42,841 nt of DNA, from IMG/VR virus record IMGVR_UViG_3300025093_000044, positions 1 to 42,841 of that record. One strand, given 5' to 3'. The stretch is from a virus. This document shows positions 1 to 5,248 of the stretch, piece by piece (the first letter of the stretch is position 1; every line of letters begins with the position of its first letter). The notes beneath the pieces are model-generated. The model was given only the letters and a program-made list of their open reading frames with translations, was not told the origin of the DNA and made no database searches. The position numbers were made by a program, and so were the translations under genes.

Positions 1-54
1 GAACTTGCGCCCCGTCTTTGGGCAGTGTGTGGGAGTGTATGTGGCGTTTGCCAT
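1..54 (-). CDS. 5' end of a leftward gene (partial)
   Basis: An open frame on the minus strand starts with ATG at 54-52 and stays open for 18 codons to the window edge. The peptide begins MANATYTPTH and continues CPKTGRKF. A full Bacteroidota-type promoter on the same strand (95-125) would give a leader of about 40 nt. The CPKTG segment could be half of a zinc ribbon, but too little is present to name a function. By position it is probably the first gene of a leftward, possibly early, operon. That a gene starts here is supported by promoter plus start codon; the function is unknown. Confidence 0.55.
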   Translation of the reverse strand, partial: MANATYTPTHCPKTGRKF

Positions 55-94: not shown

Positions 95-125
95 CAAAGG
101 TAGGGAATCGAAACACCTTTGTCAA
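95..125 (-). promoter_or_regulatory. Leftward Bacteroidota-type promoter
   Basis: Read on the minus strand, TTGAC (125-121) is followed by TACCTTTG (102-95), with 20 nt between the TTG and the TA. This matches the Bacteroidota pattern TTG-N~20-TAnnTTTG. It lies about 40 nt upstream of the leftward ATG at 54. It has the same architecture as the rightward promoter at 708-738, so the two form a divergent pair across the non-coding block. Confidence 0.65.
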
Positions 126-650
126 GCACTTTTTTTGGTCGCATCGCTGAAACCCCTGCAAATACTGGGCTTTCCGAGGCAAAATTTTTTTTGTCTGGCT
201 TGTATGTGTGCCTGCATCATGACGCATCATGACCCGTCATGACCTGCCATGTACCCACTATGCGACCGTCATGCAGCTACGGGGCGCAGATGATGCGCGG
301 ATGATGTGTGTGTACATACGTGTGCGTGTATATGTGCGCAAGTATGTGTGTAGGTGAGGGGATTGTTCTGACTTTCTCTCATCCAGTTAGCGCCCCTAAT
401 TTTCAACCGTTGCTTCACTGGAGGCTGTAACCTGCTGATTCTTAGATACTTGTGGCAGCACAAAAGCCAAAAAACTACGCGCAAACCGCAGTTGCATTAT
501 GGGGGCGGGGTTACGCAGGTGGTTTTGGTGTGTGTACACATGTGTATATATACATATATAATCCCCCAGATCTGTATTTCTACCCAAAAAAAGAAGAAAT
601 GAGTCACGTTGGCAAGAGAGGGGGTATATATGTGTCCACTTTTTAAATCT
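126..650. other. Non-coding block with alternating purine/pyrimidine tracts
   Basis: No convincing gene is seen here; the short open frames encode low-complexity His/Thr/Tyr-rich peptides dictated by TG/TA runs. Two strictly alternating purine-pyrimidine tracts occur: 304-340 (37 nt) and 528-560 (33 nt). The second contains nested perfect palindromes: TGTGTACACA (531-540), ACACATGTGT (536-545) and TGTATATATACA (543-554). A-tracts occur around 128-135 and 181-192. Such DNA readily adopts Z-form, cruciform or unwound states. This suggests an origin or control region between divergent transcription units, but that role is inferred. Confidence 0.6.
214..253. repeat. 10-bp direct repeats (iteron-like)
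   Basis: Four head-to-tail 10-bp units: GCATCATGAC (214-223), GCATCATGAC (224-233), CCGTCATGAC (234-243) and the degenerate CTGCCATGTA (244-253). A related GACCGTCATG follows at 264-273. The period of about one helical turn puts the CATGAC cores on one face of the DNA, as expected for a cooperative protein-binding array. Origin iterons or an operator array are both possible. Confidence 0.6.
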
Positions 651-707: not shown

Positions 708-738
708 TTGACTTTTTAAAAAAAAAGCTGTAACTTTG
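708..738 (+). promoter_or_regulatory. Rightward Bacteroidota-type promoter
   Basis: TTGAC (708-712) and TAACTTTG (731-738) are separated so that 20 nt lie between TTG and TA, identical to the leftward promoter at 95-125. It would drive the first rightward genes. These two are the only promoters in the window with an obvious TTGAC -33 element; the later ones rely on the -7 box. Confidence 0.7.
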
Positions 739-869: not shown

Positions 870-998
870 ATGATAGTAAAAAGAAAGAATACCTATGAGA
901 TCCGCAGCAAGAAGGGAAAGCTGCTAGGTAAATTCTTGACTAAGAAGGCTGCAATGAAGCGCTTGCGACAGATTGAGTTCTTTAAGAATAAAAAATAG
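870..998 (+). CDS. Small basic phage protein
   Basis: A 42-aa, Lys/Arg-rich protein whose core reads YEIRSKKGKLLGKFLTKKAA, ending in RLRQIEFFKNKK. Its strong positive charge suits nucleic-acid binding or virion-internal packing, but no function is established. I chose the ATG at 870; a GTG at 801 would add 23 residues that look unrelated and overlap a short hairpin (GTGC-GTAT-GCAC, 801-812). It lies 132 nt downstream of the 731-738 promoter box and is followed at once by another promoter at 999, so it may be transcribed alone or read through. Confidence 0.6.
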   Translation: MIVKRKNTYEIRSKKGKLLGKFLTKKAAMKRLRQIEFFKNKK

Positions 999-1568: not shown

Positions 1569-2039
1569 ATGCAGTTAAGCAAAAACCTATCACTGAAGGA
1601 GGTCGTAAAGTCAAACACGGCCAGCCGCCTCGGTATTGACAACACCCCAGAAGACTGGGAGATCAAAAACCTCAAGTCTGTAGCAGAAAACATATTCCAG
1701 CCTATCCGAGATCACTTCGGTGTACCGATTGCCGTGAGCTCTGGTTATAGAGGGAAGCAGCTAAATAAAGCCATAGGTGGGAGCAAGTACTCTCAACATA
1801 TGGTGGGGGAGGCGCTCGACCTGGATGCCGACGTGTACGGACGCATCACGAATGCAGATATCTTCAACTTCGTAAAAGACAACTTGGTGTGGGACCAGAT
1901 GATCTGGGAGTTCGGGGATGATGAGGAGCCTAACTGGGTACATATCTCATATAAGTCTGTGGGACAGAATCGCAAACAAATTAAGCGAGCCCGCAGAGAC
2001 GAAAAGAATAGAGTTTACTACACAGTAGAAAATGCCTAA
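1569..2039 (+). CDS. Endolysin-type M15 peptidase (D-Ala-D-Ala carboxypeptidase family)
   Basis: 156 aa, typical of the single-domain peptidase M15A/M15_3 family of zinc peptidases that cut cross-links in peptidoglycan and serve phages as endolysins or virion lysins. Visible motifs are SGYR (58-61), SQHMVGEALDLD with Zn ligands His77 and Asp84, and WVHIS with the third ligand His125. Glu114 (MIWEF) sits where the catalytic acid is expected. The N-terminus (LSLKEVVKSNTA, GIDNTP) is also characteristic. There is no signal peptide, so a cytoplasmic endolysin would need a holin or similar protein to reach the cell wall. It overlaps the next small gene by 8 nt. Confidence 0.9.
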   Translation: MQLSKNLSLKEVVKSNTASRLGIDNTPEDWEIKNLKSVAENIFQPIRDHFGVPIAVSSGYRGKQLNKAIGGSKYSQHMVGEALDLDADVYGRITNADIFNFVKDNLVWDQMIWEFGDDEEPNWVHISYKSVGQNRKQIKRARRDEKNRVYYTVENA

Positions 2040-2166
2040 GCAAGTATTTAACTACGCTCCTGGCGAAAGCAAAAAAAAGCGGCCAGGAGTACACGCTAAG
2101 ACGAAGACGTCTAGCAACAAGCAAAGCAAGAGCTACAAGAAATCTTATCGTGGTCAGGGCCGCTAA
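2032..2166 (+). CDS. 44-aa basic small phage protein
   Basis: A short frame starting at the ATG that overlaps the last codons of the endolysin gene. The product, beginning MPKQVFNYAPGESKKKRPGV and ending KKSYRGQGR, is extremely Lys/Arg/Ser-rich with no hydrophobic core, so it is probably disordered and nucleic-acid or virion associated. RPGVHAKTK and SYKKSYRGQG look like conserved-type motifs of small phage proteins; function is unknown. Its stop codon overlaps, tail to tail, the stop of the leftward gene at 2163-2582, with no visible terminator between the converging units. Confidence 0.7.
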   Translation: MPKQVFNYAPGESKKKRPGVHAKTKTSSNKQSKSYKKSYRGQGR

Positions 2167-2582
2167 AGAGAATTGTAGAAACGCTGTACCGCTAGCCTAC
2201 CTTTCTGGGACAGCCCATAACGAACTCTGTAGTTATACTTTGTTTCATCACGGAACAAGTGATCCTCTAGAGTCTGAGAAGGGCTAAGTTTATCAAATAC
2301 TTTATAGATATATCCAAGACTCATTAGTGGGTATATGATCCTGTCAGCTAGATTGCCTCTGCTCATCTGGTAGTTCTCCGCTGCCCAAGAAATAGTAAAG
2401 AACTCCAGGTCGTAAGCGTACAGCATAAAATATACATACCCTCTAGTCAGGCTAGGGTTATCCTCTAAGAACTCGTTCATAGCTGTTCTTAGATTTTTAA
2501 GGTGGTTTTGCTTTACGTATTTGCTAGGGAGTTTAGACATATCTCTAAACATCCGCTTCTTCTTAACTGTCGATTTTGGCAT
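2163..2582 (-). CDS. Putative winged-helix DNA-binding regulator
   Basis: 139 aa on the opposite strand to all neighbours. A basic N-terminus (KSTVKKKR, KYVKQNH) precedes helices around 44-90. The C-terminus, RYGLSQKGRLAVQRFY (121-136), has the beta-wing plus final helix appearance of MarR/PadR-type winged-helix proteins. A control function for the divergent operon at 2623 is plausible but inferred. ATG 2582 is preferred over a TTG at 2609, because the latter would place the start inside the divergent -7 box region. The gene converges on and overlaps the stop of the 44-aa gene by 3 nt. Confidence 0.6.
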   Translation of the reverse strand: MPKSTVKKKRMFRDMSKLPSKYVKQNHLKNLRTAMNEFLEDNPSLTRGYVYFMLYAYDLEFFTISWAAENYQMSRGNLADRIIYPLMSLGYIYKVFDKLSPSQTLEDHLFRDETKYNYRVRYGLSQKGRLAVQRFYNSL

Positions 2583-2595
2583 CTCTATTCTGTCG

Positions 2596-2610
2596 TATAT
2601 TTGAATCAAA
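2596..2610 (+). promoter_or_regulatory. -7 box with overlapping operator-like palindrome
   Basis: TATATTTG (2596-2603) preceded by TCG, in the 40-bp divergent gap between the leftward regulator and the gene at 2623. TTTGA-A-TCAAA (2600-2610) is an 11-bp inverted repeat that overlaps the box, so a bound protein would block it. TTG at 2576-2578 gives a rather short 17-nt spacer. Confidence 0.5.
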
Positions 2611-2622
2611 CGAATTTACAAC

Positions 2623-2919
2623 ATGAGCCCCAACGAGACCCTCTTCTTTGCTGAATTGTACAGCCTTGTAAAAAAGATGGAAGAGACTATCGAGGAGTTT
2701 GATATGAAGGATAGGACCGTTGCTTCTATTGTAATTGGAGTAATAGATTACGACGCTATAGAAGTGGGGGATACAGAAGCTGAGATGAAAACTATGTACA
2801 GCTTTAATATCCAAGACAGGCAAGAGCTAGAAACTGTGAAGACCATAATGGATAATGCCTACAAAGACGACGACCCTCTTGATGACCTTTTGGGTGGATT
2901 GGGAATATCATTAAACTAA
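2623..2919 (+). CDS. Unrecognised acidic protein, first gene of assembly operon
   Basis: 98 aa, acidic, mostly helical at the N-terminus (FFAELYSLVKKMEETIEEF), then a short beta-like region (VASIVIGVIDYDAI). The C-terminus, DDDPLDDLLGGLGISLN, is acidic and Gly/Leu-rich, a pattern often seen in peptides that dock onto partner proteins. No family is recognised. Its stop TAA shares the A of the next ATG (TAATG, 1-nt overlap), so translation is probably coupled to the gene at 2919. Confidence 0.6.
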   Translation: MSPNETLFFAELYSLVKKMEETIEEFDMKDRTVASIVIGVIDYDAIEVGDTEAEMKTMYSFNIQDRQELETVKTIMDNAYKDDDPLDDLLGGLGISLN

Positions 2920-3155
2920 TGGAAGGACTTATTAGAAAGATTGTGGTCGGAAAAGACCCCAAGAACGGAATGGCTTATTATGTAGGTATGCGAGCTGGAT
3001 CTGGAGAGGTATCTGCTATCGTAGAAGACGACAGACATCTTCACAAGTTTGGTAAGCAACGTTATTTGATCTACATTGAAAACGATGAAGGCACCATGTT
3101 ATGGAAGAGCATAGATGAGATGTCATGTGTTTTAGAATTTGATCTTAATTTTTGA
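2919..3155 (+). CDS. Conserved-type small phage protein, unknown function
   Basis: 78 aa with alternating strands: YYVGMRAGSGEVSAIVEDD, a helix DRHLHKFGKQ, then RYLIYIENDEGTMLWKSIDE. It looks like a compact alpha/beta domain and has no catalytic motif I recognise. Both ends overlap neighbours by one base (TAATG and TGATG), placing it firmly in the 2623-4669 operon. Its place among the genes ahead of the terminase suggests a role in assembly or late-phase takeover. That is inference. Confidence 0.6.
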   Translation: MEGLIRKIVVGKDPKNGMAYYVGMRAGSGEVSAIVEDDRHLHKFGKQRYLIYIENDEGTMLWKSIDEMSCVLEFDLNF

Positions 3156-3475
3156 TGGCAACAGAAAACCTTTATACAGACGGATCGGAGTTCAAGCTGC
3201 CTAACGGCAGAAGATACAGAGGTTACTACCATATCCACCCCAAGAAGGGTGCTATGGTGGGTGCTGTTCATGTAGATAGGTTTCACGCTATTCTTGAACC
3301 TGTAAGTTCAAAGTCCAGACAAATTGTAGCGAATAGACAGTCAGAAATTCCACCACGAGTCGTTGAAAGAAGGCTTCCAACTGTAGTGCCTCCTGTTCGC
3401 CCTGTAGCTCCAACCCCCAGAATTCAATCAAATCGCACTATCACAACTCCTAGCGGTGGCGGTGGCGGTTACTAA
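3155..3475 (+). CDS. Small protein with YYHIHP..MVGAVH motif and Gly-rich tail
   Basis: 106 aa. The N-terminal 50 residues hold a beta-hairpin domain, GRRYRGYYHIHPKKGAMVGA, followed by VHVDRFHAILEP. The rest is a disordered Pro/Arg-rich linker ending in SGGGGGY. Three or four His residues in the domain could bind metal. The flexible Gly5-Tyr tail suggests a virion or adaptor protein in which the folded head is tethered. Start ATG 3155 overlaps the previous stop (TGATG); a TTG at 3152 is less likely. Confidence 0.6.
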   Translation: MATENLYTDGSEFKLPNGRRYRGYYHIHPKKGAMVGAVHVDRFHAILEPVSSKSRQIVANRQSEIPPRVVERRLPTVVPPVRPVAPTPRIQSNRTITTPSGGGGGY

Positions 3476-3485
3476 ATTTTAATTA

Positions 3486-4070
3486 ATGAAAACATTTAAT
3501 TTGTTTGTCGTCGAACTAGACAGGACGATAAACGACACCATCACTACGTCTGGTGGTTTAGAGTTGTACATAGACAATAGATTCAATGAGTTTGAAAACA
3601 GAGTTACAGAAGGCCCTGTCGTGGCTGTCCCGTTCAAGTACGAAACTGGTGTCGAGCCTGGCGACACGTTGTACTTCCATCATCTCGTGGTTATCAACGA
3701 AGGTCAACCACTTACTGGCAATGATAATCACTACCTTGTCAGGTACGATCAAGACCACGCTATCAATAATCAAGCTATTGGCTTTAAAAGTGGCAGTACT
3801 GGTGCTATCCAACCTCTTGCGGGTTGGAGCCTTCTTGAACCCGTCGAAGAAGAGGAAGTTCAAGAATCGGAAATTATCGAAGTTGTCAAACTTACAGAGA
3901 AACCAACAACAAGAGGTAGAGTCGCATTTACGTCTTCTGGGATTGAAGCGCTAGGGCTAGAGGTTGGCGACGTAGTGGGGTTCAAAGAGAACCGAGACTA
4001 TCGCATCAAGATAGATGGCAAGGAATATTACAGAACCCGCCTTGAAGACTTGATGTATGTTGAAAGATAA
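3486..4070 (+). CDS. GroES-like co-chaperonin with two Cpn10 domains
   Basis: 194 aa that read as two Cpn10 folds in tandem. In domain 1 (about 1-95), FVVELDR is the first strand, TTSGGLELYID (21-30) sits where GroES has its mobile loop, EGPVVAVP (42-49) follows, and GVEPGDTLYF (55-64) matches the GroES VGDxVxF strand. In domain 2 (about 107-194), PLAGWSLLEPVE is the first strand, an acidic loop containing ESEIIEVV replaces the mobile loop, and TRGRVAF, LEVGDVVGF (158-166) and IDGKEYYRTRLEDLMYVE match the GroES C-terminal half. Phage co-chaperonins such as T4 Gp31 replace host GroES for capsid folding. A double domain recalls chloroplast Cpn20. Assignment is by motif order. Confidence 0.7.
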   Translation: MKTFNLFVVELDRTINDTITTSGGLELYIDNRFNEFENRVTEGPVVAVPFKYETGVEPGDTLYFHHLVVINEGQPLTGNDNHYLVRYDQDHAINNQAIGFKSGSTGAIQPLAGWSLLEPVEEEEVQESEIIEVVKLTEKPTTRGRVAFTSSGIEALGLEVGDVVGFKENRDYRIKIDGKEYYRTRLEDLMYVER

Positions 4071-4750: not shown

Positions 4751-4822
4751 GCTCTCTTAGCTCAGCGGTAGAGCAGCGAACTCATAATTCGTAGGTCATT
4801 GGTTCGAATCCAATAGAGAGCA
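4751..4822 (+). tRNA. tRNA-Met (CAT)
   Basis: Acceptor stem GCTCTCT (4751-4757) pairs perfectly with AGAGAGC (4815-4821), with discriminator A4822. The D arm is AGCTCAGCGGTAGAGC and the T arm contains GGTTCGAATCC. The anticodon loop CTCATAA gives anticodon CAT, meaning elongator or initiator Met, or Ile2 if lysidinylated. No CCA is encoded. The HNH start codon follows after only four bases. Confidence 0.93.
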
Positions 4823-4826
4823 CACG

Positions 4827-5171
4827 GTGCCATACAAAAGCAAAAAAGATCAGGCTAAGGCGGCAGCTAAACACTACCGAGAAAACAAAGAGAAAATAAT
4901 CTCTAGAAGCTCGGCTAGAAACAGAAGGCAAAAAAAAAAGAACAAAGCGTTTGTAGACCGAGTAAAAAGAATGTTCAGCTGTGTGGATTGCGGGGAGTCA
5001 GACCCAGTGGTCCTTGAGTTTGATCACGTAAAAGGAGAAAAGAGAAGGGCAATAGCTGATATGGTTTCTAACTATTACAGCATAAAAACAATAAAAGACG
5101 AAATAAGGAAGTGTGAGATAAGGTGTGCAAATTGCCATCGTAAAAAAACACATGAGCGAATGCACTCGTAG
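4827..5171 (+). CDS. HNH endonuclease lodged between two tRNAs
   Basis: 114 aa, very basic N-terminal half (about 1-50) suited to DNA binding, then a zinc-stabilised HNH nuclease. Cys52-x2-Cys55 and Cys100-x2-Cys103 are the zinc ligands, Asp66-His67 is the catalytic DH of the first strand, and His104 follows in CANCHRKK. It starts with GTG four bases after tRNA-Met. Its last two sense codons and TAG stop are encoded by the 5' end of tRNA-Arg (10-nt overlap). It could be a free-standing homing nuclease or, being next to terL, could assist DNA cutting during packaging. The family is clear; the role is not. Confidence 0.85.
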   Translation: MPYKSKKDQAKAAAKHYRENKEKIISRSSARNRRQKKKNKAFVDRVKRMFSCVDCGESDPVVLEFDHVKGEKRRAIADMVSNYYSIKTIKDEIRKCEIRCANCHRKKTHERMHS

Positions 5172-5235
5172 CTCAGTTGGATAGAGCATCTGCCTTCTAA
5201 GCAGACGGTCACAGGTTCGAATCCTGTCGGGTGTA
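5162..5235 (+). tRNA. tRNA-Arg (TCT)
   Basis: Acceptor GCACTCG (5162-5168) pairs with CGGGTGT (5228-5234), including two G-U pairs; the discriminator is A5235. The D arm is AGCTCAGTTGGATAGAGC, the anticodon stem-loop TCTGC-CTTCTAA-GCAGA reads anticodon TCT, and the T arm is ACAGG-TTCGAAT-CCTGT. It decodes AGA/AGG, and AGA is common in the phage genes here. Its 5' end overlaps the HNH stop codon and its 3' end lies 13 nt before the terL ATG. Confidence 0.94.
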
Positions 5236-5248
5236 CAAATTAAATTCA

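Follow-up and report, generated by a model that had tools for sequence, protein, structure and literature searches.

The window, an entire linear IMG/VR virus record of 42,841 bp, carries late genes of a tailed Bacteroidetes phage: an endolysin (phrog_894), the terminase large subunit (phrog_6681), the portal (phrog_6547) and virion proteins. The phage is described as a marine Bacteroidetes phage. Its terminase is 47% identical to TerL of MW202828.1, a complete circular genome that carries a gene annotated dnaA, and about 40% identical to those of Flavobacterium elemo phages; no direct DNA match to the window was found in the phage collection. Upstream of the terminase gene, tRNA-Met and tRNA-Arg genes lie on either side of an HNH endonuclease gene (4751-5236).

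The short first gene and the endolysin served to retrieve relatives, which are metagenome contigs of mixed completeness. In one of them, L012, every gene left of the block under study is oriented leftward. The map of another, G2, closes as a circle of about 58 kb, with late genes to the right of the block and, opposite, a leftward block that encodes a primase-helicase (BT4734-like N-terminal domain, DnaB_C), a PD-(D/E)XK-type nuclease (DUF3799) and a DnaA_C-like protein. The spacer at the left end of the window therefore lies at the divergent junction of early and late genes. Among the assemblies, contig G1 is possibly chimeric, having two late regions that are not identical, and in the 78,121-bp record behind L012 (L183-L186) two non-identical late-gene blocks flank a single junction, probably a chimeric or concatenated assembly.

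The spacer measures 815 bp and is gene-free from about position 55 to 869; the first rightward reading frame most likely starts at 870. Its features are collected in Table 1. Using the Bacteroidetes promoter consensus, TTTG / TAnnTTTG (PMC2483708), a scan for TTG-N17-23-TAnnTTTG returned exactly one rightward and one leftward match, against 0.084 expected in shuffled sequence, both strands together. By this consensus the two alternating tracts described below sit between divergent promoters, as the first-pass annotation had supposed, and the core of the rightward one, at 704-740, is among the most conserved parts of the block.

Table 1 Features of the divergent spacer and its borders (positions in the window unless stated otherwise).
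Feature	Position	Strand	Remarks
First leftward gene, 5' end	1-54	-	Cut by contig end; MANATYTP..., Lys/Ala-rich basic protein; recognised by comparison with L012 ORF 2868-3485 (-), 205 aa; start codon inferred
Leftward Bacteroidetes-type promoter	95-125	-	TTGACA-N17-TACCTTTG (TTG-N20-TAnnTTTG); kept in L002, L003, L039
10-bp direct repeats (GCATCATGAC), iteron-like	214-256	+	Beside leftward promoter; partly kept in L012, L039
Tract 1, 37-nt alternating purine-pyrimidine	304-340	.	Top predicted Z-DNA site in the window
Tract 1 counterparts	about -290 to -195 from box	.	L002, L006, L008, L028, L039, L140, L143, L151
Tract 2, 33-nt alternating purine-pyrimidine	528-560	.	Third-best predicted Z-DNA site; position of the 7-bp/3-nt hairpin of hairpin-type relatives
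Conserved box AATCCCCNNNNTCTGTATTNC	560-580	+	Strongly conserved; directly after tract 2 or hairpin; AT-rich TATATA just 5'
28-nt element (GGGGGTATATATGTGTCCACTTTTTAA region)	620-647	+	Inverted in L009/L016
Rightward Bacteroidetes-type promoter TTGACTTTTTAAAAAAAAAGCTGTAACTTTG	708-738	+	TTG-N20-TAnnTTTG; 704-740 conserved in most relatives
First rightward gene (MIVKRKNTYEIRSKK...)	870-998	+	Late operon start; endolysin, terminase, portal next

A pattern scan for the conserved box recovered 91 stretches in viral contigs. The 28-nt element, GGGGGTATATATGTGTCCACTTTTTA, has an identical but inverted copy in L009 (64-91) and L016, and forms a partial inverted repeat with 552-565. The first leftward gene (in L012; in L035, 2383-3123 (-); in G2, 2779-3465 (-)) encodes a Lys/Ala/Pro-rich, histone H1-like basic protein that has no family match and whose gene adjoins the structural DNA element. 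A known structured RNA was rejected as the identity of the junction: an Rfam scan of 11 relative loci, among them the L012 junction, 92% identical to that of the window, returned tRNAs and no other family.

The two tracts stand far outside chance expectation, and their extents agree exactly with those first annotated. The next longest strictly alternating run in the 42.8 kb is 14 nt; in order-1 and order-2 Markov sequences of the window's length the longest reached 20-21 nt, and 500 trials with a Markov model of the 870-nt block, tracts included, gave at most 29 nt. Tract 1 has 12 G against 5 C on the late strand, and is thus rich in G. The first-pass annotation had allowed for the tracts being absent from close relatives or an artefact; neither applies, because the tracts are kept in close relatives. 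A microsatellite or assembly artefact was rejected, since Tandem Repeats Finder reported no array at the tracts and independent contigs keep them.

Of the nested perfect palindromes noted at 531-554, what stands is three small overlapping ones of 10, 12 and 12 bp (531-540, 535-546 and 543-554), not one nested palindrome of 24 bp. None of at least 10 bp occurs at the same place in L002 or L150. A cruciform in the window was thus rejected, and with it the description of the spacer as cruciform-prone: the palindromes are short, overlapping and unconserved. Nor does tract 2 keep a conserved hairpin, and it has no small hairpin with a 3-nt loop of the kind found in phage N4.

The propensity for left-handed DNA, also proposed at first, was borne out by prediction. 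We took B-Z transition energies from the published SIBZ parameters (Table 1 in PMC3024258) and used a model with a single-run simplification of our own. In a 5-kb domain, tract 1 has a predicted midpoint superhelical density of about -0.045 and ranks first in the whole window; tract 2, at -0.048, ranks third, and TA steps, which make up half of it, limit it to weak Z formation. When sites of the first 5 kb compete in the model for a single transition, tract 1 takes 86% of Z formation at -0.045 and 99% at -0.05. Long strict alternation is thus combined with a B-Z transition that the model places at physiological superhelical density. Known Z-DNA-prone tracts in supercoiled bacterial DNA (PMC3024258) likewise show strict alternation rich in TG/CG steps and a transition predicted at physiological negative superhelicity. 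The present tracts differ from them in that their letters vary while alternation is kept, in their fixed place between divergent phage operons, and in the fields of hairpins that take their place in relatives.

In the closest relatives it is the alternation, as read from aligned sequences, that stays, while the letters of the tracts change. Tract 2 is represented in L002, L005/L025 and L006/L027 by 33-34 strictly alternating nucleotides with different letters, and its length remains 33-34 nt throughout the four closest genomes. There, all 14 variable tract columns (nine in tract 2, five in tract 1) are transition-only, against 32/65 in the flanks (Fisher p=1.9e-4); measured against flank sites in alternating context, the excess holds at p=1e-3. 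Over seven genomes tract 2 retains it (15/18 versus 106/316 in flanks, p=3.6e-5), and tract 1 shows none (13/27) because L026 has lost that tract. In the L100/L116/L150 group the difference is not significant (8/17 versus 48/168, p=0.10). Other sub-lineages (L140, L143, L151, L150, L100 and L116) also carry long purine-pyrimidine tracts at this junction, and about 120 nt of the divergent junction of MW202828.1 alternate nearly throughout (L199, 18038-18160). Elsewhere in the roughly 270 kb of relatives checked, no alternating run of at least 20 nt was found.

Where the window has tract 2, many of the 91 box-bearing stretches carry a perfect hairpin instead; its stem of 7 bp closes a loop of 3 nt, and the stem bases differ between relatives without loss of pairing: TTGGAAC-GTA-GTTCCAA, TTGGGGT-GAT-ACCCCAA, TCGGTGC-GTA-GCACCGA and TCGGAGT-TAC-ACTCCGA are examples. 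These hairpin-type relatives have no long tract; instead, perfect hairpins with 6-9 bp stems pack the spacer and the first leftward gene, left of the box. Their density, about 15 per 500 nt where 0.35 (0.3-0.4) are expected, ranges at the peak from 8 to 16, against 0.3-0.7 in shuffled sequence, and is about as low as the latter in the rest of the same loci. Loops of 3 nt (22 hairpins), 4 nt (10) and 5 nt (2) account for them, with almost none longer; loops of 3-4 nt fit small DNA hairpins. Where a hairpin contains one mismatch, G-U (9) and A-C (8) are about equally frequent and thus give, at these small counts, no sign that the RNA of one strand is what matters. RNAalifold was uninformative on this region: the alignment has many gaps, and the program is biased towards G-U pairing on whichever strand it is given. 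L035 holds a field of about 40 perfect hairpins over 1.6 kb (1900-3564), covering both the spacer and the first leftward gene, some 40-fold over chance and at this junction only; similar fields lie left of the AATCCCC box in L014, L015, L018, L043, L067, L074, L154 and L165.

The two forms replace each other at one locus. Long alternating tract and hairpin field are nearly exclusive (Spearman -0.66, n=50; 2x2 table 10/0/2/30), and there are relatives (L097, L098) that have neither. This exchange was noticed during the analysis and was not a prior hypothesis. On a tree of the endolysin, a single protein of 156 aa, the state changes 7-9 times, which may reflect module exchange by recombination, not repeated evolution. 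After correction for kinship, three pairs go in the expected direction, none in the opposite one and one is tied (p=0.25), too few for significance.

Alternation without fixed sequence, hairpins without fixed sequence and one and the same divergent junction are most simply accounted for if selection favours DNA whose form changes when it is under negative twisting stress. We therefore propose, tentatively and at somewhat less than even probability, that the spacer, at the early/late junction, holds a non-B DNA element that responds to torsion, exists in a Z-type or a hairpin-type version and takes up or buffers supercoils between the divergent operons. Selection on the tracts would act on alternation, and so on the capacity to adopt the Z form, and not on their letters. 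From the promoters on either side the early operon would be transcribed leftward and the late operon rightward, and this divergent transcription, together with the gyrase of the host, would make the spacer negatively supercoiled. Tract 1 would flip to the Z form first and tract 2 next, absorbing the stress; promoter melting would be reduced, and the two operons uncoupled or timed. In other lineages of the phage group, a field of small DNA hairpins extruded by torsion may do the same job.

Several observations speak against this proposal. Kinship-corrected pairs are few, and the transition-only signal is not significant in the L100/L116/L150 group and absent for tract 1 over seven genomes. The window's tract 2 is predicted to adopt the Z form weakly. 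Alternation would also survive a local transition bias or slippage by two bases, and this last point has a reading of its own, which we regard as improbable: that the tracts are neutral, slippage-prone or transition-biased DNA in a weakly constrained spacer. Two-base slippage and transitions keep alternation automatically, and L097 and L098 do without either feature; yet no tandem array was detected, tract 2 holds its length in the four closest genomes, and the transition-only excess persists against flank sites in alternating context. Moreover, tracts or hairpin fields occupy the same junction in many lineages and no other part of the genomes checked.

The main rival, second to a supercoil sink or buffer and on balance unlikely, takes the spacer for the phage's replication origin, with sites for a DnaA-like initiator, AT-rich DNA for unwinding ahead of the box (TATATATA) and a Z tract or hairpins that aid opening. 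The hairpin-type relatives contain 28 DnaA-box-like sites between box and promoter, against 6 expected, often paired 11-12 nt apart. The leftward operon of G2 encodes a DnaA domain IV-like protein (55102-55506 (-); PF08299, E=4.6e-4, below the curated cut-off) alongside primase/helicase and nuclease genes, MW202828.1 has its annotated dnaA, and the repeats near the leftward promoter resemble iterons. DnaA-dependent origins with a DNA unwinding element thus share with this phage group the AT-rich stretch, the boxes (in relatives), a DnaA_C-like phage protein and the divergent junction. The clade of the window departs from them: Z-type lineages lack DnaA-like boxes, and positions 1-870 of the window contain no cluster of TTATNCACA but a single site with one mismatch. 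The hairpin field also lies partly inside the first early gene. Cumulative GC skew, suggested at first as a check, does place the divergent junction of G2 near a skew minimum, but skew follows gene direction and is not decisive, nor independent evidence, since with genes diverging at the same point it cannot separate an origin from coding-strand bias.

The remaining explanations are less probable still. RecA prefers GT-rich DNA, and the tracts, of which tract 1 is G-rich, might attract it or the phage's annealing protein; recombination at the boundary of the operons would be stimulated, and the swapping of hairpin and Z modules would result. Such a recombination hotspot would suit the 7-9 switches on the endolysin tree, which occur although the endolysins involved include several that are 96-98% identical; hairpin-type lineages exchange as well, without a GT tract, and hotspot activity alone leaves kept alternation and fixed position unexplained, so that we give it little credence. 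Scarcely more plausible, and if anything slightly less so, is a DNA-entry checkpoint, at which secondary structure would halt the transfer of DNA into the host for a time. The model here is the injection stop signal of phage T5, where repeats, inverted repeats, palindromes and DnaA boxes are thought to form secondary structure (PMC13250531). The hairpin-type junction, with inverted repeats, structure-rich DNA and DnaA-like boxes between two gene blocks, is alike in this respect. The Z-type version has no such boxes, and the circular map of G2 does not tell how near the junction lies to the first-entering end.

The least probable reading likens the junction to phage N4, whose virion RNA polymerase uses hairpin promoters; tract 2 would be a degenerate form of such a promoter in this clade. 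N4 promoters are small DNA hairpins extruded by supercoiling, with a 7-bp stem and a 3-nt loop (PMC4496689). The relatives' hairpins at the tract 2 position have this very size and paired though varying stem bases, and extrusion under gyrase-made supercoiling is plausible for them also. In contrast to single promoters, hairpins number about 40 in L035, and the window itself has tracts, not hairpins, tract 2 being without a conserved one. Among the giant proteins examined no N4-type polymerase was found: the 3185-aa protein of G5 has no PDB match and only DUF3293 and Phage_L5_gp82 in Pfam, and the 1990- and 1499-aa virion proteins of the window match no Pfam family.

Returning to the torsion-responsive element, a broader form of the proposal is doubtful, though we consider it worth stating: that the junction element is defined by its mechanical behaviour and not by its sequence, and has two interchangeable forms, tracts prone to left-handed DNA or dozens of tiny hairpins, which lineages swap while the box and the rightward promoter stay. 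If true, this would be a natural case of selection on the twist response of DNA, in which two non-B structures replace each other. It would open to test, in a simple system, the long-standing question of whether bacteria and phages put Z-DNA and cruciforms to any use, and the element would mark the boundary of early and late genes in Bacteroidetes phages that have not been cultured.
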